64,000 nt of DNA from an uncultured Pelagibacteraceae bacterium (lineage in GTDB: Bacteria > Pseudomonadota > Alphaproteobacteria > Pelagibacterales > AG-422-B15): assembly GCA_902578305.1 (NCBI GenBank), contig CACHCK010000001.1, positions 1 to 64,000 on the forward strand, written 5' to 3'. The notes under the pieces were generated by a model. That model had not been told where the DNA came from. It did not search any database and saw only the letters and a list, made by a program, of their open reading frames with translations. Positions 680 to 19,104 of the stretch are shown piece after piece (the stretch's first letter is position 1; each line of letters begins with the position of its first letter). The translations under genes were made by a program, and so were the position numbers.

Positions 680-2007
680 AAAATTTTTTTGGAACAGATG
701 GAGTAAGAGCAAGTTCAAATAGTCAAAAACTTAATGGCCTAACGCTTATGAAACTTGGAATGGCACTAGGTAAACACTTTACTGTTGGAGAACATCGTCA
801 CAAGGTCGTTATTGGTAAAGATACAAGACTATCAGGATATATGATTGAACAGGCATTAACCTCTGGATTATTATCTATGGGAATGGATGTCTTTCTTTTT
901 GGGCCCATACCTACACCCGCAGTTGCAATGTTAACAAAATCTATGCGAGCAGACTTAGGGATAATGATAACTGCTTCACACAATCAATATCAAGATAATG
1001 GTATCAAAATATTTGATAAAAATGGAAATAAATTATCAGACGAAACTGAAATTGAAATAGAGTCTCTTATGGAATCTGAATTAGAAAATTCATTAGCGGG
1101 TCCAGAAAAAATAGGCAGAGCAAAAAGACTCGAAGATGCAAATGGTAGATATATAGAATTCCTAAAAGGTACTTTTCCTAAATCACAACGACTTGATGGT
1201 CTTAAAATTGTAATTGATTGTGCAAATGGGGCTTCTTATATTTCTGCACCTTTAATTTTATGGGAGCTTGGTGCAGAAGTTATTCAAATAGCTACTCAAC
1301 CAAATGGAACTAATATAAATTTCGAATGTGGGTCTACTAATACCAATAAACTTGCTAAAAAAGTATTAGAGGAGAAGGCTGATATTGGTATTGCCTTAGA
1401 TGGCGATGGTGATCGATTGGCTGTTATTGATGAAAAAGGACATTTAGTCAATGGCGACCAGATACTGGCATTACTAGCTATTGAAATGTCAAAAGATAAA
1501 AAATTAAAAAATAATAATGTAGTTGGTACTTCAATGGCAAACATGGGCTTAGAAACTTTATTAAAGAAACATAACATTGGGTTAATCAGGGCAAAAGTTG
1601 GTGATCGATATGTAAAGGAAAAAATGATTTCAGAAGATTTAAATTTAGGCGGTGAACAATCTGGACACATAATTTTACGTGATTTTACTTCATCAGGAGA
1701 TGGAATAGTAGTTGCTCTTCAAGTTCTATCTATCTTAAGTAGAAAAAAAGGAAAAGCCAGTGAATGCCTTCATTTATTCAGTCCTCTACCGCAAAACCTG
1801 ATTAATTTCCCCGTAAAAGAAAGAAATATTTTAGATCACGAGGATACGAAATTATTTATCAAATCTTGTGAAGAAAAAGTTTCAGAAGACGGAAGAATCG
1901 TAGTTAGAATGTCTGGTACTGAACCTCTTTTAAGAGTTATGATTGAAAGTGGAAATCAGCATACAATTGACGAATTAACTGAGAGCGTAACAAAATATTT
2001 TTCATAA
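676..2007 (+). CDS. glmM: phosphoglucosamine mutase
   Basis: FGTDGVRA start, TASHNQYQDNGIK active-site loop, DGDGDR metal loop; 4-nt overlap with folP. Confidence 0.96.
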   Translation: MKNFFGTDGVRASSNSQKLNGLTLMKLGMALGKHFTVGEHRHKVVIGKDTRLSGYMIEQALTSGLLSMGMDVFLFGPIPTPAVAMLTKSMRADLGIMITASHNQYQDNGIKIFDKNGNKLSDETEIEIESLMESELENSLAGPEKIGRAKRLEDANGRYIEFLKGTFPKSQRLDGLKIVIDCANGASYISAPLILWELGAEVIQIATQPNGTNINFECGSTNTNKLAKKVLEEKADIGIALDGDGDRLAVIDEKGHLVNGDQILALLAIEMSKDKKLKNNNVVGTSMANMGLETLLKKHNIGLIRAKVGDRYVKEKMISEDLNLGGEQSGHIILRDFTSSGDGIVVALQVLSILSRKKGKASECLHLFSPLPQNLINFPVKERNILDHEDTKLFIKSCEEKVSEDGRIVVRMSGTEPLLRVMIESGNQHTIDELTESVTKYFS

Positions 2008-2016
2008 AGGCATTAA

Positions 2017-4193
<2,177 letters not shown>

Positions 4194-4224
4194 AATATGG
4201 TTACTTTTTTCTAGAAATCAATGA

Positions 4225-5196
4225 TCAGCTTTTAATTGAATTTACCAATTTGCTCAAGTAATCCGGCATAACAGACTGAAAATGAAGCATTTTTTCTTTT
4301 TTAGGATGAAGAAACCCAAGAGATTGCGCATGCAGAGCCTGTCCTGGCAACATTTTAATTGATTGAACTGTGCTTTCTGAAAGTGATTTTAGTTTACTTT
4401 GAGGCGATCGCCCATAAGTACGATCTCCTATGAGTGGATTTCCCTTTTCTGTTAGATGCACTCTTATTTGATGAGTTCTTCCGGTTTCTAAGCGACATTC
4501 TAATACTGTGGCAATAATTTGATTTTTTTTGTTCTTTAAATTTTCTAGTGTCTTGTAATGAGTGATAGCAACCTTACCTCTACTCACAGAACTCATCATT
4601 TTCGTTCTATTCTTATTACTTCTAGATAAAAGTGACTTAATTTTTCCATTTGCTGGTGAGATTTTGTTCCAGCATACAGCAATATAAACTCTTTCAATAG
4701 AGTGAGAAGCAAATTGGTCAGATAAATGTTTATGAGTGAAATCATTTTTAGCTATTACAACTAGTCCACTCGTATCTTTATCAATTCGATGAACTATTCC
4801 TGGCCTTTGAGCATCACCGACAAATTTTAATTCATCTCCACAATGATTGATCAAAGCATTAACAATTGTACCTGTCTTATTTCCAGCACCGGGGTGCATT
4901 ACAATGCCCGCAGGTTTATTGATAACTATCAAATCCTTATCTTCATAAACAATATTTAATTTTATGTTCTCACCAATTATTGGTGTCTCATTTGCTAATT
5001 GTATATTTACTGAAATATGATCGCCTAATGAGATCTTATAATCAGGATCTACAATATTATTATTTACTGTAATATTGAAGGACTTTATTAATTGAATTAT
5101 TTTTGACCTACTAAATTCTTTCAAATTTAAAGCAATATATTTGTCTATACGTTGACCTACTTGCTTCTTATGGTTGACTTTGTATTGATAGAACAT
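4225..5196 (-). CDS. rluD: RluA/RluD family 23S rRNA pseudouridine synthase (start possibly 5217)
   Basis: S4-like N-terminus plus HRIDKDTSGLVVIAK catalytic motif; internal Met at 5196 avoids overlap with divergent gene. Confidence 0.9.
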   Translation of the reverse strand: MFYQYKVNHKKQVGQRIDKYIALNLKEFSRSKIIQLIKSFNITVNNNIVDPDYKISLGDHISVNIQLANETPIIGENIKLNIVYEDKDLIVINKPAGIVMHPGAGNKTGTIVNALINHCGDELKFVGDAQRPGIVHRIDKDTSGLVVIAKNDFTHKHLSDQFASHSIERVYIAVCWNKISPANGKIKSLLSRSNKNRTKMMSSVSRGKVAITHYKTLENLKNKKNQIIATVLECRLETGRTHQIRVHLTEKGNPLIGDRTYGRSPQSKLKSLSESTVQSIKMLPGQALHAQSLGFLHPKKEKMLHFQSVMPDYLSKLVNSIKS

Positions 5197-5208
5197 TATG
5201 AGATAACG

Positions 5209-5496
5209 ATGTACCAAAAAATTATGCTATTTATAGTTATATTTCTCGGAATTGTAATTTTAATTGGTACCACGATTGTTATTACTACTATTATTGAGCG
5301 ATCATACAAGATTGATTTTTTTACTTCCACTGATAATTCTGAGAAGGATATAAATATTGAAAAAAAATGTGATCTTGTGGGTGAAAAAACTAAAGTTATT
5401 TCTCTAAGTGAGGACAAATTAGCTATTATTTGTGAGGGTCGTATTGAGGTAATGAATTTATCTAATAATCAAGTAGAAAAAGTAGTTAACTACTAG
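5209..5496 (+). CDS. small single-TM membrane protein (start in track 5152; ATG 5209 fits better)
   Basis: Hydrophobic N-terminal helix MYQKIMLFIVIFLGIVILIGTTIVI; divergent from rluD; family not assigned with certainty. Confidence 0.6.
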   Translation: MYQKIMLFIVIFLGIVILIGTTIVITTIIERSYKIDFFTSTDNSEKDINIEKKCDLVGEKTKVISLSEDKLAIICEGRIEVMNLSNNQVEKVVNY

Positions 5497-7142
5497 CTTG
5501 CTCTATAAAAACTGGTCTCTACATCAGGTAAAGTTTCTTTTTTAAGGATGAGATCAGATGCCTTTTCAGCGATCATTACAGTTGTTGCATTGAGATTTCC
5601 TGTAATGATATTTGGCATTATTGAAGCATCTACAACTCTTAAATTTTCAATCCCATAAACTTTGAGCTCTTCATCGACAACAGATAACTCATCTTTACCC
5701 ATCTTGCATGTACAAGAAGGATGATAAGCAGTATCACCTTTATTTTTAATGAATTCATTTAAATCACCTTCAGAGCTTGAATTTATTCCAGGGTTAATTT
5801 CTTTTCCTCGATATTTATCAAAAGCTTTTTGATGAAAAATTTCCCTTGCAATTTTAATACCATCTCTCATTTCTTTTAAATCATGCTCTGTCTGCATATA
5901 ATTAAACTGTATAGCGGGTGAAGCTGAGGGATTGTTTGACTTTAATTTGACATGTCCTCTACTTGTTGGCCTCATTGGTCCTACATGCGCTTGAAAAGAA
6001 TGAGAGCTTGGAGATTGTCTTCCATGATCCAATACAAGCGATGGAAAGAAGTGATACTGAATATTAGGATAATCAACCATATCATTACTTCTCACGAAGC
6101 CGCCTGTCTCTAAGTTTGAATATGCTGCCACTCCAGATTTAAAAATAAACCACTCTATCCCTATGAATGCCATTCTTATTGGATTATATGATGTGTAAAG
6201 TGTAACGGGCTTTGTACACTCATATTGTAAATAAGTTTCAAGATGATCCTGTAAATTTTCACCTACACCTCTTAGGTCATGTTGAACAGAAATATCTAAT
6301 TTTTTTAGTTCTTCAGCATTTCCTATACCTGAAAGCATTAGAAGTTGAGGTGAATTTATTGCTCCAGCTGATAATATCACTTCATTTTCAGCATGTATTT
6401 TTTTTCTCTCTCTTCCTGTAGTACATTCAACCCCAACGGCTTTATTATTTTCAATAATAACTTTGTTTACTATTGTATTTGTAATAACGGTAAGATTTCT
6501 TCTGTTAATAACTGGATGCAAGTAAGTTACACTCGTACTCTGTCTTCTGCCTCCATAAATAGTGGTATCCATTAGACCAAATCCCTCTTGCTTATATCCA
6601 TTCATGTCATTATTTATCTCATAGCCGGCTTGTTCTGCTGCTTCTAGGTAGACCTTACTCAATTCATTGCCCTCTGAAGATCGAGATAATTTTAAAGGAC
6701 CGCTTTTATTCCTATAAGTTTCATCTAATCCTTCAATTGACTCTGATTTTTTAAAATAAGGAAGAACATTATTATAATTCCATGACTTAAGATCTTTTTG
6801 AGCCCAGTTTTCAAAATCCATTGGATTTCCTCTTACATGAACCATACCGTTGTGTGATGAACTTCCTCCCAACATCTTTCCTCTTGGGCAAAACATTTTT
6901 CTATTGTTCATGAACGGTTCAGGCTCAGTTTCGTATAAATAATTATATTTTGGGTCATGCATTGTGTATAATAAAGCTGCTGGCATTGAGGTTTTCCATG
7001 TTTTATCCGATGGACCTGACTCTATTAACAATACATTTATCTCTGGATCAGCTGAAAGTCTATTTGCCAGAACACAACCCGCACTTCCGGCACCAATAAT
7101 AATATAATTATAAGAATTAAATTGCATAACTAATTTTACCAA
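5493..7142 (-). CDS. GMC-family oxidoreductase (choline dehydrogenase-like)
   Basis: [21 protein letters not shown] motif, GMC signature PRGKMLGGSSSHNGM, C-terminal NLRVVDASIMPNIITGN. Confidence 0.9.
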   Translation of the reverse strand: MVKLVMQFNSYNYIIIGAGSAGCVLANRLSADPEINVLLIESGPSDKTWKTSMPAALLYTMHDPKYNYLYETEPEPFMNNRKMFCPRGKMLGGSSSHNGMVHVRGNPMDFENWAQKDLKSWNYNNVLPYFKKSESIEGLDETYRNKSGPLKLSRSSEGNELSKVYLEAAEQAGYEINNDMNGYKQEGFGLMDTTIYGGRRQSTSVTYLHPVINRRNLTVITNTIVNKVIIENNKAVGVECTTGRERKKIHAENEVILSAGAINSPQLLMLSGIGNAEELKKLDISVQHDLRGVGENLQDHLETYLQYECTKPVTLYTSYNPIRMAFIGIEWFIFKSGVAAYSNLETGGFVRSNDMVDYPNIQYHFFPSLVLDHGRQSPSSHSFQAHVGPMRPTSRGHVKLKSNNPSASPAIQFNYMQTEHDLKEMRDGIKIAREIFHQKAFDKYRGKEINPGINSSSEGDLNEFIKNKGDTAYHPSCTCKMGKDELSVVDEELKVYGIENLRVVDASIMPNIITGNLNATTVMIAEKASDLILKKETLPDVETSFYRAS

Positions 7143-7171
7143 AGTTTGTAATTATAGTACAACATAAGCTT

Positions 7172-8050
7172 ATGTTAAAAAATTTAAACCCCAATTATGC
7201 AATTGTACTTTCAACATTATTGTGGGGTACGTGGTGGTATCCATTAAGGCTACTTAATGAATATGCATATAATAATGCAATTCCGCTCACTTTAAGTTTC
7301 ACTATTGCTGGGTTATTTTTATTATTTTTTTCATACAAAAATATATCAAAATTAACTAATCGAAATTTAATTCTTACAATAGTCGCAGCTTCAGCAGGAG
7401 CGGCTGCAATGTGTCTTTATAATGAAGGTTTAATTAGAGGTAATGTTGCAAGAGTCTTGATCTTTTTTTATTTAACAGCTGTATGGAGCACTTTAATTGA
7501 AATTATTTTTCTAAGAGCGGCCTTAAACATTTATAGGTTTTTTTCAATTTCTTCAGGTTTTATAGGTCTGTTTATTATAACTGGGTTGGATCAAGGAAAT
7601 TTTATGCCTAGCACACTTGCAGATCTGTTTGGAATTCTCTCAGGATTTCTCTGGTCAATCTGTGCAACACTCATAAGAATAAATGAGGAACTTGATGTAA
7701 ATTTCGGTACTTCAGTTTTTATTTTAATTGGGGGTCTTTTTGTTGTTATTGCAACATTCTTACCAGATGGGCAAATACTTTCAGGATTTAACTATGATAT
7801 TTTAAAGAATACTATTTTGATAATTTTAATATTCGCATTTATCTGGTTATTGCCAGGTTACTGGCTTGTCACCTATGGTCAGGATCAAGTTGATCCAGGA
7901 CGCGCGGGGATCCTATTGATGTTTGAAGTTGTTATTGGCGTTATATCTGCCTATCTGCTTGCAAATGAAATAATCTCGATTAGAGAGTTTATTGGTGCAA
8001 TATTCGTAATGAGCGCACCATTAATCGAGATCTATTCAGTAAAAAAATAA
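7172..8050 (+). CDS. EamA/DMT-family transporter
   Basis: About ten hydrophobic segments, DMT-like length and layout. Confidence 0.75.
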   Translation: MLKNLNPNYAIVLSTLLWGTWWYPLRLLNEYAYNNAIPLTLSFTIAGLFLLFFSYKNISKLTNRNLILTIVAASAGAAAMCLYNEGLIRGNVARVLIFFYLTAVWSTLIEIIFLRAALNIYRFFSISSGFIGLFIITGLDQGNFMPSTLADLFGILSGFLWSICATLIRINEELDVNFGTSVFILIGGLFVVIATFLPDGQILSGFNYDILKNTILIILIFAFIWLLPGYWLVTYGQDQVDPGRAGILLMFEVVIGVISAYLLANEIISIREFIGAIFVMSAPLIEIYSVKK

Positions 8051-8165: not shown

Positions 8166-9182
8166 ATGAATAAATTTTTTAAAAAATCTGCAATTGGAAT
8201 ATTTTTAGCAGGTTTTGCAGTTATTTTTGCAGTTAGTTGCGACAGGAATCAGGAAGTAGCTGATTGTGGCACAATTACTGTCGCAGAAATGAATTGGGCA
8301 TCAGCTGAAATGTTTGCTCATGTAGATAAAATAGTATTAGAAAATGGGTATGGTTGTAATGTTGAACTTGTACCCGGCGATACTATGCCAACAGCAACAT
8401 CAATGATGGAAAAAGGTGAGCCGGATGTAGCTCCTGAACTCTGGATTAATTCAGTTCGTATAGCTCTAGATAATGCAGTAGGTGAAGGTCGTTTGCATTA
8501 TGCGGCTGAGGTACTGTCTGACACTGGTGAAGAAGGATGGTGGATTCCTCAGTACATGGCTGATGCAAATCCTGATATCCAAACGGTTTATGACGTTATA
8601 GAGCGCCCTGAACTTTTCCCTCATCCGGAAGGTGGAGATGGAGCAATTTATACATGTCCATCAGGTTGGAACTGTCAAATTAGTACCGGAAATCTCTTTA
8701 AAGCGTATGATATGGAAGCAAAAGGATGGAGACTAGTTGATCCTGGATCAGGTGGTGCATTAGCTGGTGCTATCGGTGAAGCATATAATAAAGAAGAGGG
8801 ATGGCTAGGATACTATTGGGCTCCTACAGCAGTTCTTGGCAAATATCCACTTAAGAAACTAAGCTTTGGCGTTGAACACAGTAAAGAAGAGTGGGACACT
8901 TGTACTTCTCAAGACGGATGTGCAGATCCAAAACCTAACGCATGGGTTGTTTCTGAAGTATACACTGTTGTAACTGATAACTTTAAAAATAGTTCTGATC
9001 TTGGAATGGAATACATTTCAAAGAGAGCACTTCCAAACAGCACTGTTAATGCTTTATTAGCTTGGAAAGATGAAAATCAAGCATCTGGCGAAGACACAGC
9101 TATACATTTTCTGAAAAACTATACAGAATGGCACAGCTGGGTTGACGGTAATGCGAAAGCTAAAATTGAAGCAGCGTTATAA
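8166..9182 (+). CDS. proX: glycine betaine/choline/proline-type ABC transporter substrate-binding lipoprotein (OpuAC/ProX family)
   Basis: Signal peptide with VSC lipobox; OpuAC-like architecture; followed by permease and ATPase genes. Confidence 0.85.
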   Translation: MNKFFKKSAIGIFLAGFAVIFAVSCDRNQEVADCGTITVAEMNWASAEMFAHVDKIVLENGYGCNVELVPGDTMPTATSMMEKGEPDVAPELWINSVRIALDNAVGEGRLHYAAEVLSDTGEEGWWIPQYMADANPDIQTVYDVIERPELFPHPEGGDGAIYTCPSGWNCQISTGNLFKAYDMEAKGWRLVDPGSGGALAGAIGEAYNKEEGWLGYYWAPTAVLGKYPLKKLSFGVEHSKEEWDTCTSQDGCADPKPNAWVVSEVYTVVTDNFKNSSDLGMEYISKRALPNSTVNALLAWKDENQASGEDTAIHFLKNYTEWHSWVDGNAKAKIEAAL

Positions 9183-9198
9183 TTAAAAAAATAATATT

Positions 9199-9222
9199 GC
9201 GGACTATAGAAATATAGTCCGC
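9199..9222 (+). promoter_or_regulatory. perfect 10-bp stem with GAAA tetraloop in the proX-proW intergenic region
   Basis: GCGGACTATA-GAAA-TATAGTCCGC, no following T-tract. Confidence 0.8.
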
Positions 9223-9230
9223 ATATTTAT

Positions 9231-10127
9231 ATGAACTTTACCGAATTTTTTATTTCATTTCCTGAAATGAGTAAGGAGAGTCTTCGCTTATTCAAGAAGT
9301 CTCTTGATGGCGCTTACCGAAACTTTTCACGTGAATATGGCGATACAATTGAAGCGGTTTTTGATCCAGTGCTTTATTTCTTAGTATGGTTTGAAAAAAT
9401 ACTACAAAATTCTCCATGGCCTGTCGTAATAATCGTTTTCTTATTATTGATTTATTATGGAAGTAGAAGTATCGCTCTAACTATTTCATCTTTAATTGCT
9501 TTTTTATTAATTGGATATTTTGGAATGTGGGATGATACGATGTCCACAGTCAGTATTATTGGTGTTTGCACACTAATGTCTATCGGCCTAGGTATACCAA
9601 TTGGCATATTAATGTCAGGATCTGATAGGGCGAGAGCCGCAATTACTCCAATTTTAGATATTATGCAAACGATGCCAAGTTTTGTGTATCTCATTCCAGT
9701 TGTTATGTTATTGGGTATTGGTAAAATTCCTGGTTTACTTGCAGTTATAATCTATGCAATCCCGCCAATAATTCGACTTACTGATCTTGGTATTAGAGAA
9801 GTTAATAAAGAAGTTTTAGAAGCCGCAGATGCATTTGGTGCAAATAGAACTCAAAAATTATTTAGAGTACAGCTTCCATTAGCTTTACCAACAATTTTCG
9901 CTGGTATTAATCAAACAATAATGATGGCACTTGCAATGGTAGTTATTGCTTCAATGATTGGGGTTAAGGGATTGGGGCAACCAGTCTTAAAAGCCATCAC
10001 CAATCAATATTTTACAATGGGCCTTCTCAATGGTTTGGCTATTGTAGCTTTGGCGATCATATTTGACAGGGTTTCTCAGTCATTTGGCAAAAGAATGCAG
10101 CAATATAGGGCTGGCGCAAATGAGTGA
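9231..10127 (+). CDS. proW: glycine betaine/proline ABC transporter permease
   Basis: Binding-protein-dependent permease EAA-type motif EAADAFGANRTQKLFRVQLPLALPTI. Confidence 0.9.
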   Translation: MNFTEFFISFPEMSKESLRLFKKSLDGAYRNFSREYGDTIEAVFDPVLYFLVWFEKILQNSPWPVVIIVFLLLIYYGSRSIALTISSLIAFLLIGYFGMWDDTMSTVSIIGVCTLMSIGLGIPIGILMSGSDRARAAITPILDIMQTMPSFVYLIPVVMLLGIGKIPGLLAVIIYAIPPIIRLTDLGIREVNKEVLEAADAFGANRTQKLFRVQLPLALPTIFAGINQTIMMALAMVVIASMIGVKGLGQPVLKAITNQYFTMGLLNGLAIVALAIIFDRVSQSFGKRMQQYRAGANE

Positions 10128-11145
10128 GATAAAGATTAAGATAGAAAATTTGTATAAAATTTTTGGATCAAGACCAAGAGAGTACACAGACATAGTTAGA
10201 GATGGTGTTGATAAAGACGAGTTATTATCAAAATATAATCATGTTCTTGGGTTGGATAATATTTCTCTAGATATCAAGGAGCATTCAATACAAGTTGTAA
10301 TGGGATTATCAGGGTCAGGAAAATCTACTTTGATAAGACACATTAATAGATTGATTGAGCCAACCGAGGGAACGGTCACAGTTGATGGAGAGGATATTAC
10401 TAAACTTAATAAAATGGATCTTCTAGAGTTTAGAAGAAATAAAACAGGGATGGTTTTTCAACGCTTTGCACTATTTCCTCATCAAAATATATTAGACAAT
10501 GTCCAGTTTGGATTGAGCATAAAAAATCTAGATAAGTCAGACTCTATAGAAAGAGCAATGTACTGGATCGAAAAAGTTGGTTTAACCGGTTTTGAAAATA
10601 AATTCCCAAATCAATTGTCAGGAGGAATGCAGCAAAGAGTAGGATTAGCTAGGGCGTTAGCTACTGATCCAGATATATTGCTAATGGACGAAGCCTTTAG
10701 TGCGCTTGATCCATTAATAAGAACTGATATGCAGGACCAATTACTGGACTTACAAAAGAATTTAAATAAAACAATTATGTTCATAACTCATGACCTCGAT
10801 GAGGCACTAAAATTAGGCGACCGAATAGCTATACTCAATGGCGGAAAACTTGTTCAAGATGGAAATGCAGAGGAAATTCTTTTAAAACCCGCTGATCAAT
10901 ATGTGGCCAATTTTGTTAAGGATGTTAATCGTATAAAGGTTTTAAAAATCAAGACAATTCTTGACCAAGGAGGTGAACGAGCAAATTCTAATCCAACTGT
11001 AAACGTAAATGATAGTATTGAAACTTGTTTGCCGGCAATACTTGAAAGTCAATCCGGTCTTAACGTAATTGATGAGAAAAACAATTTTGTTGGCTCAGTA
11101 TCAAAAAACAAAATTATAGACATTTTGCAAAAATCTAAGGATTAA
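10120..11145 (+). CDS. proV: glycine betaine/proline ABC transporter ATP-binding protein (corrected start; track start 10063)
   Basis: Walker A GLSGSGKST, signature LSGGMQQRVGLARA, C-terminal CBS-like region; ATG 10120 overlaps proW stop. Confidence 0.92.
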   Translation: MSEIKIKIENLYKIFGSRPREYTDIVRDGVDKDELLSKYNHVLGLDNISLDIKEHSIQVVMGLSGSGKSTLIRHINRLIEPTEGTVTVDGEDITKLNKMDLLEFRRNKTGMVFQRFALFPHQNILDNVQFGLSIKNLDKSDSIERAMYWIEKVGLTGFENKFPNQLSGGMQQRVGLARALATDPDILLMDEAFSALDPLIRTDMQDQLLDLQKNLNKTIMFITHDLDEALKLGDRIAILNGGKLVQDGNAEEILLKPADQYVANFVKDVNRIKVLKIKTILDQGGERANSNPTVNVNDSIETCLPAILESQSGLNVIDEKNNFVGSVSKNKIIDILQKSKD

Positions 11146-11160
11146 TTCTACTGAATTTTT

Positions 11161-13569
11161 TTATTGCCTTAAATTTTTACCGGTTTGGTCATAACAAGCA
11201 TTATCAATAATTGAGGCATTATAAAACTCTCCATTTATTTCAACTTGCAAAACTTCTTTGGATTTTAATAAATCATTGTTCAAGTATGCAAAAGCAATAC
11301 TTTTTTGCACATAGTGGCCGAAGCCTCCAGATGTTACATATCCGATACATACTTCATTCTGCATAACAGCTTCATTGCTAGTCACATCTATGTTGTCAGT
11401 TTCAATTACCAAGGAAAATAATCTGTGATTGCTATCATCTTTAACTGCAGCGTCTTTACCAATAAAATCTTTATCCCAATTTATAAATGCAGAAAGGCCA
11501 GTTTCTTTTGGAGTATAGTCAGGTCTAAAATCTAGTGTCCATGCGCCCCAATTTTTTTCTAGTCTCATAGACATCAAAGCTCTTCCGCCAAAAGGTTTAA
11601 TGTTGAATTCTTCTCCTGCATCCTCAATAGCCTCATACAGCTTGATTTGATAGTGTGGAGCTACATATATTTCATATCCCAATTCTCCAGTAAATGACAA
11701 CCGGTTGACTAATGCAGGAACACCAGCAACAAACATTTGTCTAGAATCTCTAAATTTAAATGACTCATTAGAAACATCTTCTCTTACCAATAATTGCAGT
11801 AAATTTCTAGACTTTGGGCCAGAAATAGCAAGGCCGTGATAATCATCAGATCTGTTTTTATAAATGACCTCATATTGATCTAGATGTTGTTCAAACCATC
11901 GTCGATGCATTTCCTGAGCGGCACCAGATCCATAAACCATAAAATGATTTTCACTAATACACGAAACTGTAAGGTCCCCATATAATTTACCTTTTTTAGA
12001 TAGCATTGGACTTAGTGCTATGCGTCCAACTTTAGGTATTCTACCTGCCAAAATATAATCCAAAAATTTTCTTGAGTCTTTTCCCTTAAATTCATGTTTA
12101 GAAAAATTAGCAATCTCTGTTACTCCAACGTTTTCTCTTACATTTTTTACTTCATTTGAAACATAGTTATGGGATCGAGAGCGCTTGATAGTTGGTTCTT
12201 CGTAAGCATCATCAGGATTATCAGCAAACCATAGAACATTTTCGAGTCCAAAGCTGTCACCCATAACTGCTCCCATGTTAACGAAGCGATCATATAAAGC
12301 TGTAGTTTTTTGTTTCCTTCCTTTTGGTAAAGTCTCATTTGGAAATGTCATAATAAATCTTCGTTCATAATTTTCAGATGATTTAATTGTTCCATAATGT
12401 GGAGATGCATAATCACCAAACCGTGCGACATCCATCGCCCAAACATCTATGGAAGGTTCACCATCAATAATCCATTCTGCAATACATTTGCCAACACCTC
12501 CTCCTTGACAGAACCCGGCCATAACACCGACTGCTACCCAATAATTTCTCATACCTGGAACTGGTCCAATGAGAGGATTTCCATCAGGACCAAATGTAAA
12601 AGGGCCGTTAACAATATTTTTAATTCCTGCTTTTTCCAAAGCTGGCATTCTCTCAAAACCAATGACTAATCGATCTTGAATATTTTCTAATTTTGGTTCC
12701 AACAGTTCATGTCCAAAATCTAATGGGGTTCCCTGAACTTTCCAAGGAGTAGACTTATGTTCATATGTGCCAAGCAACATGCCTTGTCCTTCTTGTCTAA
12801 AATAGATATTACCATCAAAATCAGTTCCAACTGGTAGCCTTGTTCCCTTAGGCATCGCTGCTATTTCTGGAATTGTATCAGTGATTAAATAATGATGCTC
12901 CATTGGCTGTACAGGCAAATTTAATCCAGCAAGTTTACTGACCTCTCTCGCCCAAAGTCCTGCAGCATTAATTACAATTTCTGTATGAATATTGCCCTTA
13001 TCAGTAAACACATCCCAGGTTCCATCTTCTCTTTGCTTAGTGTCTTTAACCTCAGTATTTGTGTAATAGTTAGCGCCATGAACTTTTGCAGATTTTGCAA
13101 ATGCATATGTGACACCTGATGGATCTACTTCTCCATCGATCGGATCCCACAAAGCTGAAATATATTTATTGGGATCGATAAGAGGATTTTTTTTTGCAAC
13201 CTCCTCTAATGAGATAAACTCTTGATCAAGACCCATATATCTGGCTTTTGTTCTTTCTCTTTTAAGATAATCAGACCAAACTTCATTAGAGGCTAAATAA
13301 AACCCTCCACTTGGTTTAAAGCCAACTGAATGACCTGAAGTCTCTTCAATTTCCTTGTACAAGTTTATTGTATATGCCATCAGTCTGGATATGTTTGGAT
13401 CTGAAGAAATGACATGAACGTTTCCTGCGGCATGCCATGAGGATCCTGCTGTTAATTCTTTTCGCTCAAGGAGAACGCAGTCCTTCACCCCAAACTTTGC
13501 TAAATGGAAAAGAATAGAGCAACCTACAACTCCCCCGCCAATAACAACAACTTTAGCATGAGTTTGCAT
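11161..13569 (-). CDS. FAD-dependent dimethylglycine (or sarcosine) dehydrogenase with C-terminal GcvT-like domain
   Basis: VVIGGGVVGCSILFHLAKFG Rossmann motif, GSSWHAAG flavinylation-site region, GcvT-like C-terminal half. Confidence 0.88.
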   Translation of the reverse strand: MQTHAKVVVIGGGVVGCSILFHLAKFGVKDCVLLERKELTAGSSWHAAGNVHVISSDPNISRLMAYTINLYKEIEETSGHSVGFKPSGGFYLASNEVWSDYLKRERTKARYMGLDQEFISLEEVAKKNPLIDPNKYISALWDPIDGEVDPSGVTYAFAKSAKVHGANYYTNTEVKDTKQREDGTWDVFTDKGNIHTEIVINAAGLWAREVSKLAGLNLPVQPMEHHYLITDTIPEIAAMPKGTRLPVGTDFDGNIYFRQEGQGMLLGTYEHKSTPWKVQGTPLDFGHELLEPKLENIQDRLVIGFERMPALEKAGIKNIVNGPFTFGPDGNPLIGPVPGMRNYWVAVGVMAGFCQGGGVGKCIAEWIIDGEPSIDVWAMDVARFGDYASPHYGTIKSSENYERRFIMTFPNETLPKGRKQKTTALYDRFVNMGAVMGDSFGLENVLWFADNPDDAYEEPTIKRSRSHNYVSNEVKNVRENVGVTEIANFSKHEFKGKDSRKFLDYILAGRIPKVGRIALSPMLSKKGKLYGDLTVSCISENHFMVYGSGAAQEMHRRWFEQHLDQYEVIYKNRSDDYHGLAISGPKSRNLLQLLVREDVSNESFKFRDSRQMFVAGVPALVNRLSFTGELGYEIYVAPHYQIKLYEAIEDAGEEFNIKPFGGRALMSMRLEKNWGAWTLDFRPDYTPKETGLSAFINWDKDFIGKDAAVKDDSNHRLFSLVIETDNIDVTSNEAVMQNEVCIGYVTSGGFGHYVQKSIAFAYLNNDLLKSKEVLQVEINGEFYNASIIDNACYDQTGKNLRQ

Positions 13570-13571
13570 TC

Positions 13572-14612
13572 TTAAGGTGTGAATTCTTTATTTACCTGCT
13601 TAAGAGTTTCGTCTGTTCCATGGTGAAAATGTTTTCTCATGTCCGGCATATATTTCATCGAAATTGGTTTTTTACCAACTGCAACTGACATTTCTCTCAC
13701 GTGATGTGCTTCGGCGCCACAACAAATTCCAATAAAATTGATATTTTTTTCCATACAGTCTGCAGCAAATTTAGCCATTTCAAAACGATTACAAAAAAGA
13801 TTATCCAAGGCTACAGGAAATGCATTATTTCCAGGAATACAATCACATCCATCATCAGAAATATTTAAAAAACCAGGTTCCTTTTCTGTTGTTCGATAAG
13901 GCACTGGCAATCCAGCAACATGGCAAGATACTTTATCTCTTACTTTTTCTAGAAGTTTCATAGTCATATCTGGCCCTCTATAACAGTTTAAACCAACGAC
14001 ATTTGCACCCAAGTCTTCCATCATTTTACATGCATCTTCAGGTGTATGTCCTTCTCTTGTCTTATCTCCCCTGGGTATCGCAAAATTTGTAACTGCAATC
14101 ATGCCTTCATCTTTGATTGCTTTTAGAGCAATTTTCATTTCCTCAGTCCAATTAATTGTCTCAGCGACAATAAAATCAACTCCCGCTTCCTTTGCCCACG
14201 CCACTTGTTCCTCATACATTTTCTGACATTGAATAAGAGATTGTTTATCATTTGGATCATAAATATTTGTATTTGCTACATCTCCACAAACCATAAGATC
14301 TAAATCATTATATTCATTAGCTGCATCTTTTGCAATTTGAAGAGCATTTTTCTGTAAAGACTCTAATAAATGTTCTTTCCCAATTATTCTTAATTTTTCT
14401 CTATGGCCATAATAAGTGAAAGCTTGGACGACATCAGATCCTGCTCTTATAAATTCTCTATGTAATTGAGTAACAACTTCTGGGTGCTCTAAAACAACTT
14501 CAGGAACAAATCCTCCTGCGGATAAGTAACCTCTTCGTTCCATGGCGAATAAATAACCTTCAGCACAAATGATTGGTCCCTCATTTAATCTCGTTATCAG
14601 ATCTTTTTTCAT
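13572..14612 (-). CDS. betaine-homocysteine S-methyltransferase family protein
   Basis: AGSDVVQAFTYYGHREKL, GLNCYRGP and GICCGAEAHHVR zinc-thiolate motifs; next to DMGDH. Confidence 0.87.
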   Translation of the reverse strand: MKKDLITRLNEGPIICAEGYLFAMERRGYLSAGGFVPEVVLEHPEVVTQLHREFIRAGSDVVQAFTYYGHREKLRIIGKEHLLESLQKNALQIAKDAANEYNDLDLMVCGDVANTNIYDPNDKQSLIQCQKMYEEQVAWAKEAGVDFIVAETINWTEEMKIALKAIKDEGMIAVTNFAIPRGDKTREGHTPEDACKMMEDLGANVVGLNCYRGPDMTMKLLEKVRDKVSCHVAGLPVPYRTTEKEPGFLNISDDGCDCIPGNNAFPVALDNLFCNRFEMAKFAADCMEKNINFIGICCGAEAHHVREMSVAVGKKPISMKYMPDMRKHFHHGTDETLKQVNKEFTP

Positions 14613-14723
14613 GAATGCACTCCTAATTTATTCAAACAATAAATAAAAAATTATACCTAATTTAATATTCTGTCGAATTAAAAAAATGACAAGGCTATTC
14701 TTTTTTGGAATGAATAAGCATTT

Positions 14724-16094
14724 CTAATTTGAAAACAAACGCTCATCAAGCGGATAAGTAGAAATCGTTTCGTAACCATTATTTGTTACGACACCCTGAT
14801 CCTCAAGCTTGACCATGTGGTCCCCATTAACTTCACCCACCAAAGCCTCGACACAAAGAGTCAGTCCTGGTTCCAGAACAGCGTCAAAGGCATTTTTAAC
14901 CAAACGGTCTGGGTAGGCGATCAATGGCCATTCGTCACACATCCCGACACCATGCATAGGTGATGAATACTTGAGCGCCTGATACTTGTCCTGCAACACG
15001 TGCAAAGAATGAGTTAAGTCTTCCATGTGGAGGCCGGGCTTGAGAAGCCTTGTGTTATAGCGAATGTGTTCTACTGCCTCTGCATAACTCTCGCGCATAT
15101 TAGCTGGCGCTAAACTATCTCCAATCCACCAGGTACGACTGAGATCTGCACAAATCCCATAGGGGCCGATCAAATCAGTATCAAAAGCAAGAATTTCGTT
15201 CTCAGATATGATCCTTGGCCCACATTCTTGAAACCATGGGTTGGTGCGTGGCCCTGAAGTAAGCAGTCTTGTCTCAATCCACTCGCCACCTCTTTTAATA
15301 TTTTCTGCATGGAGTACCGCCCAAACATCATCCTCTGTCACACCACCTTTTGGAATTTCTGAGCGTGCAAACTCCTCCATAACTGCCATCGAGCGTTCAC
15401 AAGAATAAATAGAACAGCGCATTGCTCGTAATTCGTGCTCGGTTTTGATAGCTCGTGCACGTTCTGTCACTTCCTCACCGTCACAGTACTCAAGCCCTGC
15501 TCGACGGACCGCATCTAAACCTGCAGGCTGAATTTTGTCTATACCGACTTGTGTACAACCTGGAGCGTGAGTGGCAATTAAGTCTAGTACCTCAGCTGCG
15601 AAAGCGTCAGCTGCTGGCCCAATCCGGTCACCACGGGCGAAGTAAAACATGTCCGCACCTGAGCGGCTCTCCCGAACAAGTGGATTGTATTGGGCGAGGA
15701 ATGGTGCGTTTTTATAATCCCAGAGTACCATATACCCATCAGCACAAAGCAAGCACGCCCGGAACGGATTGTGGGTGTTCCACAACTGCATATTTGTCGT
15801 GTCAGTTGCATAACGAATATTAAGGGGATCAAACATCAATAAGCCCCCATAACCCCTGGCTACAATTGCATCAGTCAAGCGTTTGTGTCTGGCTTTGCGC
15901 ATCTCAGTCAGATCTGGCAATATAAGCCCTGCATCTTGCCATTCAGCATAGGCTAATGCAGTTGGGCCAATTTCGACACGATCGCCATCATTGATTGTTC
16001 CATCGCCCAGATGCACCCCCTGGCTTGGGTCTATCTTATGATTATCGCTGTAGTAATTATTTATATTTGGTAATATTTTACGATTTATCTTCAT
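14724..16094 (-). CDS. dddP: DMSP lyase DddP (M24 metallopeptidase-fold)
   Basis: Recalled DddP motifs: IDPS.G..LGDGT.ND.DR.EIGPT, FDPLNIRYATD.TNMQLWNTHNPFRA, GGEWIETRLL.SGPRTNPWFQECGPRI, FDTDLIG.YGIC.D.SR.WWIGD, HGVG.CDEWPL. Confidence 0.93.
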   Translation of the reverse strand: MKINRKILPNINNYYSDNHKIDPSQGVHLGDGTINDGDRVEIGPTALAYAEWQDAGLILPDLTEMRKARHKRLTDAIVARGYGGLLMFDPLNIRYATDTTNMQLWNTHNPFRACLLCADGYMVLWDYKNAPFLAQYNPLVRESRSGADMFYFARGDRIGPAADAFAAEVLDLIATHAPGCTQVGIDKIQPAGLDAVRRAGLEYCDGEEVTERARAIKTEHELRAMRCSIYSCERSMAVMEEFARSEIPKGGVTEDDVWAVLHAENIKRGGEWIETRLLTSGPRTNPWFQECGPRIISENEILAFDTDLIGPYGICADLSRTWWIGDSLAPANMRESYAEAVEHIRYNTRLLKPGLHMEDLTHSLHVLQDKYQALKYSSPMHGVGMCDEWPLIAYPDRLVKNAFDAVLEPGLTLCVEALVGEVNGDHMVKLEDQGVVTNNGYETISTYPLDERLFSN

Positions 16095-16102
16095 TTTATT
16101 AA

Positions 16103-17245
16103 TTAAGGATTAATTCTATTCAAATAATTTAATCTACCTACGATCTCATCCCTATCAATATAATATCCTTGGAGGTGTCTATTACCTGAATTGGCATCGT
16201 ATTCTTTTCTGCCATGCAAGACTCTTCTGTTATTAAAGCTAAAAATATCTCCAGCTTCTAATCTGAAATTGATTTCAAACATAGGGTCATGTAGCAATGA
16301 AAGAAGTTTACGATATGCTTCATAGAAGCTATCCATAACTTCAGGACTGCAATCCATTATTCCCATATAAGCAACGCTAAACCGTATATCATTAAAATCA
16401 TTGTTGTGATCTAGAGTAAATATGGGTTTATGCATTACTCTAATTGTGTTTGCGGTGTAATCTCTATTTACAAATTTTACAGGTGTATCAAGAAGAATCT
16501 TGAAGAATTCAGTAAAATTTTCTTTCATATAGCTTGCAACTCTAAATCCATCTAACGCAACTGATTCACCACCGGTTGCATCGTTTATTAAACAATGAAG
16601 AAACTGGTAGCCAGGAGCAATTTCATAATATGGTAAGTCGATGTGATTTCTTAGAGCTGCTGCGGTATAGGCTGAATTGTTTGGATTAGGAATGTCGATT
16701 ACTTCAAACGGTGTTTTAAAAAAAGTTTCTCTGTGATGACTTATATTTGATAGAACATCAAAGCCTGACTCTTTTTCAGTGGGTGCATTTTTTACAATTG
16801 AAATGCCCTTATAGTGAAGTTGTTCTAACCATTTTTTAATTCCATCATCTCCACTGATAATTTCTTGATAATCTATTTGAATATCTTCAAAATTTGATTG
16901 CATGCTATTATCCCATAAAAAATAAGGTGAACTATATTTTTTCTTACTTTTCATCGTGTAGCAGTTATGTCGAAGCCATTCGGTATCATAGTAACTTATA
17001 TGGCTTCCTTCACTCCACTCAATCTCCAACTGCCCTTTATCATTTATTGTAAACGCTTTTGGGTGAATATTTTCTGAAACATTTAGCAAGTTAAAGGTTC
17101 TCTCCCTTGCAGTAGGGTGAACTTCTGATGGACAATTATCCCTTAACCACAAAAAATTGAATTTACTCTGCTCACCATCACTCCAATCAATTAGAATCGA
17201 TTTACCATTTTTTTTTAATGATGATATTGATGGATTCTCATTCAT
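16103..17245 (-). CDS. gamma-butyrobetaine dioxygenase-like Fe(II)/2OG oxygenase
   Basis: LWLRDNC N-terminal domain motif; HID...PGYQFLHCLIN...LHGR facial-triad context. Confidence 0.85.
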   Translation of the reverse strand: MNENPSISSLKKNGKSILIDWSDGEQSKFNFLWLRDNCPSEVHPTARERTFNLLNVSENIHPKAFTINDKGQLEIEWSEGSHISYYDTEWLRHNCYTMKSKKKYSSPYFLWDNSMQSNFEDIQIDYQEIISGDDGIKKWLEQLHYKGISIVKNAPTEKESGFDVLSNISHHRETFFKTPFEVIDIPNPNNSAYTAAALRNHIDLPYYEIAPGYQFLHCLINDATGGESVALDGFRVASYMKENFTEFFKILLDTPVKFVNRDYTANTIRVMHKPIFTLDHNNDFNDIRFSVAYMGIMDCSPEVMDSFYEAYRKLLSLLHDPMFEINFRLEAGDIFSFNNRRVLHGRKEYDANSGNRHLQGYYIDRDEIVGRLNYLNRINP

Positions 17246-17248
17246 ATC

Positions 17249-18223
17249 TTATTTAAATGTATTATATTTTCTGTCCCAATTCGGAAACTTACCTTTTTGA
17301 TTCTTATTTAAAGTTTTCATAATTTCAATCAAAAACAAATCTCTTTGTTTTTCTAGTTCTTTAATATTGAATTTTCCTGCTTGTTTTTTTGTTCCTGAAA
17401 CCATTGCTTTTTTAAGTTTGTTGGTTAATTCAGGCGCTTTCAATTTTGTCCAAGGGAGTTTCAGTGCAGGACCAAATTGTTCCAGCATGTGTTTCATGCC
17501 AGTTTCTCCGCCAGCTAAATGGAACGTTAGACAAACCCCCATAAAAGCCCATCTCAATCCAGGACCATAAACAATTGCATCATCAACTTCATCCGTTGAT
17601 GCTACTCCGTCATTTATTATATGTAAGGCTTCACGCCATAACGCTTCTTGTAGTCTGTCTGAAATATATCCTTCTATTTCTTTTTGAACAATAAGTGGTC
17701 GCATTCCAATATGTGCATATAATTTTTTTAATTTTTTAACGCTTGTATGACTAGTTTTCTTGCCAGCCACAATTTCTACCAACGGTAATAAGTATACAGG
17801 ATTGAATGGATGTCCTATTAATACTCTCTCAGGAAACTTACAAGCCGATTGAATTTTAGATGGCAATAAGCCTGACGAACTAGAAGCGATTATAACTCTC
17901 TTATCAACTAAATTATCAATTTGTTTGAGTATATTTTTTTTAATCTTTTCGTTTTCTGGTGCATTCTCTTGAACAAAAGTTGTATCCTTCAATGCACTAG
18001 GTAATTTTGAATAGACCTTAAGATTTCTTAATGAGGCATTTCTATTCAAACCAATTTTCTTTAAGCTTTTAAAAGCAGTTCGAACATTTATTTTTAGCTG
18101 CTCACGTGAAACACTATTAGGGTCATATGCTTTTACAGTATAACCTTTTGCTAGAAATCTTGCAGCCCAGCCTGCGCCAATTACTCCAGTACCCACAATA
18201 GTGATGACTTTATTTTGTTTCAA
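17249..18223 (-). CDS. L-carnitine dehydrogenase-like 3-hydroxyacyl-CoA dehydrogenase family protein
   Basis: [26 protein letters not shown] motif, [17 protein letters not shown]; flanked by GBBH and BKACE. Confidence 0.85.
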
Positions 18224-19104
18224 ACTTTAAGCCCAAGTTTTTTTCTAGCTTCATCTGGCCCCATAACATTAGCACCAAGATTACTAATTATTGTCGTCGC
18301 TTTTTCAACAAGTTGACCGTTTGAAGCGTATACACCTTTTTCAAGATATAAGTTGTCTTCAAGACCAACTCTAACATTGCCTCCCAAGAGAACCGCTTGA
18401 GCAACCATCGGCATTTGATGAACCCCAATTCCAAAAGCTGCCCAGTTACTGCCCGATGGTAGCATGTCTACCATGTTTTTCATTGAACCGGTATTAGCCG
18501 GTGCCCCATAGGGAATGCCAAGACAAATTTGAAATAGAGGAGGGCTGTCAAGCAACCCCTCATCGTACATTTGATTTGCAAACCACATATGCCCTGTATC
18601 AAAAACTTCTAACTCCGGTTTTACGCCTAATTCTTGTATTCTTTTTGCACCAATTCTTAATTGTTCAGGAGTACTAACATAAATCATGTTGCCATCACCA
18701 AAATTAAGAGTTCCACAATCAAGGGAACATATATCTGGTAATATTTCTTCAACGTGACTTAGTCTTTCAATCGCATTAACAAAATCAGTATTAGGTCCGA
18801 ACTTTAACAGATCATCCTCAGGTCCAATTTCTATATCACCGCCCATACCACTGGTAAGATTTATTATGACATTTGTGCCACTATCTTTTATGCGGCTCAC
18901 AACCTCTTTATAAAGCTCATCGTCTCTTGATCCCTTTCCTGTATTTAAATCTCTGACATGGATATGCGCTATAGCAGCTCCAGCTGACGCTGCTTCAATT
19001 GCTGCATTAGCAATTTGCTCTGGCGTCACCGGTATGTTTGGATGTTTGTTGACTGTATCTCCTGATCCAGTAACAGCACATGAAATAATGACGTCTCTGT
19101 TCAT
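18220..19104 (-). CDS. beta-keto acid cleavage enzyme (BKACE/DUF849), likely 3-dehydrocarnitine cleavage
   Basis: [46 protein letters not shown] typical BKACE N-terminus; carnitine gene context. Confidence 0.88.

Follow-up and report, generated by a model that had tools for sequence, protein, structure and literature searches.

A DMSP lyase gene of foreign composition lies within a three-gene module that probably spread recently among SAR11 bacteria

The dddP module and its insertion site

The window, which is the whole stretch of 64,000 nucleotides of DNA analysed here, belongs to a SAR11 (Pelagibacterales) single-cell genome and carries a gene for the DMSP lyase DddP together with genes for a BHMT-like methyltransferase and a DMGO-type protein, set between a carnitine/betaine-type gene block and an ABC transporter operon (Table 1). 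The nearest named carriers of this module are uncultured Pelagibacteraceae single cells, and the family of the host differs from that of the order's complete genomes.

Table 1. Features at the dddP locus, in window positions
Feature	Position	Strand	Remarks
ProX/ProW/ProV-type ABC transporter, DmpXWV-like, right flank	8166..11145	+	
proX	8166..9182	+	
proW	9231..10127	+	
proV	10063..11145	+	over the TIGR01186 cut-off
15-bp direct repeat TAGAATTAATCCTTA, right copy	11136..11150	-	3' end of proV; identity breakpoint in G007
Inserted stretch between the repeats	11151..16103	-	missing at empty sites L166, L169, L230 and others
DMGO, dimethylglycine dehydrogenase/oxidase-like (FAD and GcvT-type), module gene 3	11161..13569	-	802 aa; native-like GC3 0.244
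BHMT-like methyltransferase, module gene 2	13572..14612	-	346 aa; closest solved relative human BHMT 1LT7; native-like GC3 0.216
dddP-BHMT gap, within the module	14613..14723	-	111 bp; 98-100% identity among carriers
dddP, DMSP lyase	14724..16094	-	456 aa; sole GC-rich gene of the module
GBBH-like dioxygenase (gamma-butyrobetaine hydroxylase-like), left flank	16103..17245	-	TIGR02409 310 bits, under cut-off 415
15-bp direct repeat TAGAATTAATCCTTA, left copy	16104..16118	-	3' end of GBBH
Carnitine dehydrogenase-like gene, left flank	17249..18223	-	NF005471 373 bits, cut-off 414
BKACE-type cleavage enzyme, left flank	18220..19104	-	NF052387 248 bits, under cut-off; G007 recombination tract fades here

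The identification of dddP made in the preliminary description was borne out. The protein scores 787 bits against the NCBIfam equivalog NF043017 (cut-off 600; profile positions 1-442 of 443) and matches the solved DddP of Ruegeria lacuscaerulensis (4RZY) over its full length (E 2.5e-201), gap-free over residues 12-453, and the motifs named in the preliminary description are present, with FDTDL at residue 304, HGVG at 381, CVEAL at 414, and KLEDQ at 429. An alignment with the DddP of locus L062 shows conservation of D305, D307, D317, H381, E416, and E431, which we take to be the metal ligands (D, D, D, H, E, E), and of the active-site D387, which is equivalent to Asp377 of 4RZY and is Asn in 4S01. 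Judged by its sequence, the gene is a bona fide dddP, and its product probably makes DMS, a climate-relevant gas. The BHMT-like protein stays under the NCBIfam cut-offs (PRK07534, 98 of 338 bits; PRK08645, 145 of 453 bits), and the closest solved relative of DMGO is human dimethylglycine dehydrogenase (5L46, E 1.1e-181). The insert holds three metabolic genes only, with no transposase or integrase. A search of the dddP-BHMT gap for a riboswitch or other RNA returned no Rfam match with an E value of up to 1, and promoter and terminator scans gave chance level only.

In carriers, the ~4.95-kb dddP-BHMT-DMGO stretch sits exactly between GBBH and proV. In genome G034, with 97-98% nucleotide identity in the flanking genes, GBBH and proV are directly convergent with overlapping 3' ends and no module between them, and the junction is likewise empty in G029, G011, G021, and eight sister-clade genomes; absence of the module is firm only where such an empty junction was read, because the genomes are incomplete single-cell assemblies. 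The two copies of TAGAATTAATCCTTA lie 4968 bp apart, the closest empty site (L166, in G034) has a single copy, and most carriers with both junctions read have the repeat at both ends, with one base changed in one copy each in G012 and G028. Since keeping the two overlapping gene ends intact would in any case require ~10 of the 15 bases to be present twice, the repeat is modest evidence for a particular, transposition-like insertion mechanism and no proof of it. In one further genome (G032, C6:8531-9672, in L236), GBBH contains stop codons or frameshifts beside an intact module, which reflects either sequencing error or a real pseudogene.

Composition and ancestry of dddP

The composition of dddP was compared with that of 396 open reading frames (ORFs), each 150 codons or longer, drawn from 442 kb of its genome. 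The gene ranks first among them for GC (0.472, z 3.8), GC3 (0.427 versus an ORF mean of 0.230, z 6.1), and four-fold GC (GC4, 0.385 versus 0.197), and its codon fit (-0.095 versus a mean of 0.203, sd 0.041) is the worst of all. The G+C counts reported earlier for five 60-nt lines (30, 31, and 28 within dddP; 15 and 14 in the flanks) are all exact, and such lines average 28.6 G+C over the gene versus 20.3 (sd 4.7) over the 64-kb window. In 1-kb windows, GC reaches 0.484 within dddP and lies at 0.28-0.41 away from it. The anomaly is therefore real: the sliding-window profile is not smooth, and the codon usage is unlike that of the genome, as is looked for in a horizontally acquired gene. The increase in GC begins ~35-65 bases past the start codon, after ~10-12 AT-rich codons, near the point at which most other DddP matches start (residue 9-11), and the N-terminal residues may therefore be native sequence.

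The closest DddPs from outside SAR11 are 86-90% identical at the amino acid level (two more at 82-83%), after which the next fall to 61-65%. Those at 82-90% come from roseobacters, SAR116, a metagenome-assembled genome (MAG) labelled Rhodospirillaceae, and a gammaproteobacterial MAG. In the DddP tree, the SAR11 sequences group together (100/100) and are nested in a roseobacter/SAR116 clade (98/100), in conflict with the species tree. Extreme composition, this nesting, and absence from the same site in close relatives (G034, G011, G029, and others) together uphold the foreign, higher-GC origin that had been proposed, as well as the expectation that the gene would not be present in all relatives. 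The suggested roseobacter-like donor fared less clearly: the sister of the SAR11 sequences is Ruegeria arenilitoris HKCCD6430, with weak support (83/71), and a grouping of SAR11 with SAR116 DddPs is not rejected (AU p 0.12), even if the tree does not favour a SAR116 donor. The phylogeny thus points weakly to a putative roseobacter donor.

Two observations bear on the age of the import. Donor-type genes have a GC3 of 0.58-0.77, versus 0.43 in SAR11 dddP and 0.23 in the host, and polarised single-nucleotide polymorphisms comprise 17 GC>AT and 4 AT>GC changes (17/21; sign test p 0.007). With a GC3 between donor type and host, the cross-lineage import is old, unless an unseen donor had intermediate GC.

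Full-length DddP is confined to this genus among the 398 Pelagibacterales sampled. Among the outside loci at 86-90%, a DMGO-like gene precedes dddP, and in the two that were read in detail (L028 and L034) an MttB-like gene lies upstream; L028 also has a GbdR-like regulator and osmolyte transporters. In L034 (SAR116 AG-893-M18, 1849-7347), the MttB-like/DMGO/dddP genes are GC-rich (DMGO 0.58, dddP 0.60) within a locus that averages 0.45, so this cluster may be an import in SAR116 too. A phage or plasmid vector was considered and rejected: viral contigs contained no dddP, phages gave a 24% match only, and plasmid DddPs were less than 60% identical.

Spread of the module among SAR11 lineages

The module or a part of it occurs in 17 of the 44 genomes of the genus, 16 of them with full dddP and one (G016) with a fragment at a contig end. 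Between the carriers G000 and G007, dS is 0.017 for dddP, 0.010 for BHMT, and 0.008 for DMGO; it is ~0.1 for GBBH and carnitine dehydrogenase, 0.52 for BKACE, 1.06 for an ALDH gene, and 1.8-3.0 or saturated in the cox block, and beyond the tract it is at least 0.5 and mostly >1. Along the G007 sequence, the right repeat marks a step in identity from ~65% to ~99%, and on the left identity drops near 18.6 kb. This profile fits exchange through homology at one end and through a short repeat at the other, a mechanism read from the pattern of identity. Four other carriers (G066, G006, G028, and G012) have modules at least 99% identical beside ProX and ProW alleles that are 76-89% identical. In a tree of cox genes, the closest genomes to G000 and G007 are G034 and G011, respectively, both with empty sites, and monophyly of the carriers is rejected (AU p 8e-34). 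At the transporter itself (counterparts L160, L163, and L169), ProX, ProW, and ProV alleles are 73-92% identical in nucleotides and other genes ~94-97%; this locus is recombination-prone.

The spread of the module between SAR11 lineages is a recent event, and the import of dddP from a GC-rich donor is an old one. The word "recent" in the preliminary description accordingly applies to the former and not to the latter, in which GC3 has already fallen to 0.43. Its proposal that a single gene was inserted was not supported: the insertion comprises dddP, BHMT, and DMGO, and gives the impression of one gene because BHMT and DMGO are native-like in composition. With dddP alone GC-rich, the module is best described as mosaic, an imported gene next to a native-type pair.

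We favour, with a probability of roughly 0.85, an old import of dddP, its joining to BHMT-DMGO, and a recent spread of the resulting module across SAR11 lineages. Composition, tree, empty sites, repeat, and near-identity across diverged genomes were computed, and from them we infer the transfer mechanism, the assembly order, the enzyme activities, and selection. At some earlier time, an AT-rich lineage of the SAR11 type would have acquired a dddP of the roseobacter/SAR116 clade, which became joined to a native-type BHMT-DMGO pair, after which the ~4.95-kb module would have spread very recently among lineages of one genus, at a single site formed by the overlapping 3' ends of GBBH and the DmpXWV-like transporter operon. 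It would move by recombination through flanking homology, with the 15-bp repeat at one end. If so, the ability to produce DMS would be able to pass through SAR11 regardless of species boundaries, and SAR11 carriers may go unnoticed in surveys that attribute dddP to roseobacters and SAR116 alone. Close relatives include both occupied and empty sites, so time-series metagenomes already available could serve to gauge how much DMSP cleavage contributes to fitness.

A more specific version, which we regard as doubtful, is that TAGAATTAATCCTTA at the GBBH/proV overlap serves as a reusable landing and excision site for a recombinase-free cassette. Entry would then rely on long homology at the GBBH end and, at the proV end, on microhomology within the repeat, precise loss between the repeats could follow, and DMS-making capacity would switch rapidly across diverged SAR11 lineages.

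That dddP alone was inserted beside a resident BHMT-DMGO pair appears improbable. It is the sole GC-rich gene, and G021 has the pair without dddP; however, that pair (81% and 71% identical in amino acids) lies at another locus, the empty sites are devoid of all three genes, and no genome read has an intermediate at the GBBH/proV site, either dddP without BHMT-DMGO or the pair alone. The three genes also share their near-identity and their outer boundaries. Little probability likewise falls to a mobile element or phage that ferried the module between lineages: direct repeats at the ends and near-identity across diverged hosts would suit such a vehicle, but the insert has no recombinase, and on the left side in G007 the boundary tapers off within homologous host genes, as homologous recombination would leave it.

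Presence of the module in the ancestor of the genus, followed by repeated loss (e.g., by deletion between the 15-bp repeats) and with strong conservation as the source of similarity, is very unlikely. Precise loss between direct repeats would leave the empty site observed, and the carriers are scattered over the cox tree, but conservation of proteins cannot produce a dS of 0.008-0.017 between G000 and G007 versus 0.5-3 elsewhere, and the sister-clade genomes and G021 are all empty at this site. Secondary loss in single genomes such as G034 is possible. Contamination of single-cell libraries or assembly chimeras would be the least credible explanation, even if the named carriers are all single-cell genomes from one style of project, since the module runs without a break into lineage-specific flanks on 70-660 kb contigs, dddP alleles vary among carriers (45 polymorphic sites), and all carriers share the same site and junctions.

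Proposed function and comparison with known systems

The proX product matches the DMSP-binding DmpX 7YLE (233 bits) and, in an alignment read by eye, appears to keep seven of the eight pocket residues listed for RnDmpX (W35, T64, W84, E113, W152, A153, Y200, and W202; PMC10030565), with A153 replaced. By this resemblance, the neighbouring transporter is likely a DMSP importer. The genes upstream resemble those for steps from gamma-butyrobetaine and carnitine to betaine, most of them under curated cut-offs. In this route, gamma-butyrobetaine is followed by carnitine and then betaine. We propose that the module serves the joint use of imported DMSP and betaine, a role predicted from gene content: the transporter would import DMSP and glycine betaine, DddP would split DMSP into DMS and acrylate, BHMT would pass a methyl group from betaine to homocysteine, and DMGO would oxidise the dimethylglycine so formed, which would lengthen the carnitine/betaine route encoded by the adjacent genes. 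DddP enzymes cleave DMSOP too (PMC10686828), and release of DMSO is therefore possible. A search for an acrylate route gave AcuI matches, none above the cut-off in the 44 genomes. DmdA reached 352 bits in the genome itself (cut-off 410) and exceeded the cut-off in none of the 44, so demethylation is not established with this model.

A cupin-type DMSP lyase as the lineage's own route was set aside, as the sole DMSP_lyase (PF16867) match in the genus lies in G021 (L262, C3:67119-67475), which is 99% complete and has no dddP. A DddP-like M24 protein matching at 36-39% is found in four loci (L015-L018, in G050, G044, G043, and G046) and in about 96 of the 398 sampled Pelagibacterales. Two scanned copies score 337-357 bits against the DddP cut-off of 600, and the four that were aligned keep the metal ligands and the active-site Asp, but Trp105 is substituted by Tyr or Phe; a DMGO gene is found close by in L017 and L018.

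The SAR11 DddP resembles 4RZY and the NF043017 family in its full-length match, ligands, active-site Asp, and score over the cut-off, and differs from known DddPs in its SAR11 host and in ~10 extra AT-rich N-terminal residues; it belongs to the 86-90% roseobacter/SAR116 subclade and not to the common roseobacter DddPs at 61-65%. The roseobacter/SAR116 clusters (L028 and L034) combine MttB-like, DMGO-like, (GbdR-like), dddP, BCCT, and ProX-like genes. In both settings dddP lies in a betaine/dimethylglycine cluster, in L028 also beside osmolyte transporters, whereas the SAR11 module has a BHMT-like gene for the MttB-like one, a DMGO only 64% identical, another gene order, and no regulator.

A polar survey counts DddP among the DMSP genes of Pelagibacterales (PMC8520302), and a literature search, mostly without subscription journals, found no published description of the dddP-BHMT-DMGO module or its site. 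Gene sweeps are known in SAR11 from the nar operon (PMC12374537), and the transfer of phnCDEubiE between Pelagibacterales and HIMB59 is a cross-order case (PMC12416821). As in these, a near-identical operon occurs laterally spread in otherwise diverged genomes; unlike them, the cargo here is for DMSP and betaine, there is one fixed site with a 15-bp repeat, and the lineages involved differ by a dS that is mostly >1. The dmpXWV genes were reported not to be co-located with known DMSP catabolic genes (PMC10030565), whereas here a DMSP lyase module directly adjoins the transporter. The parts, and the process of gene sweeps in SAR11, are known; their combination is new.
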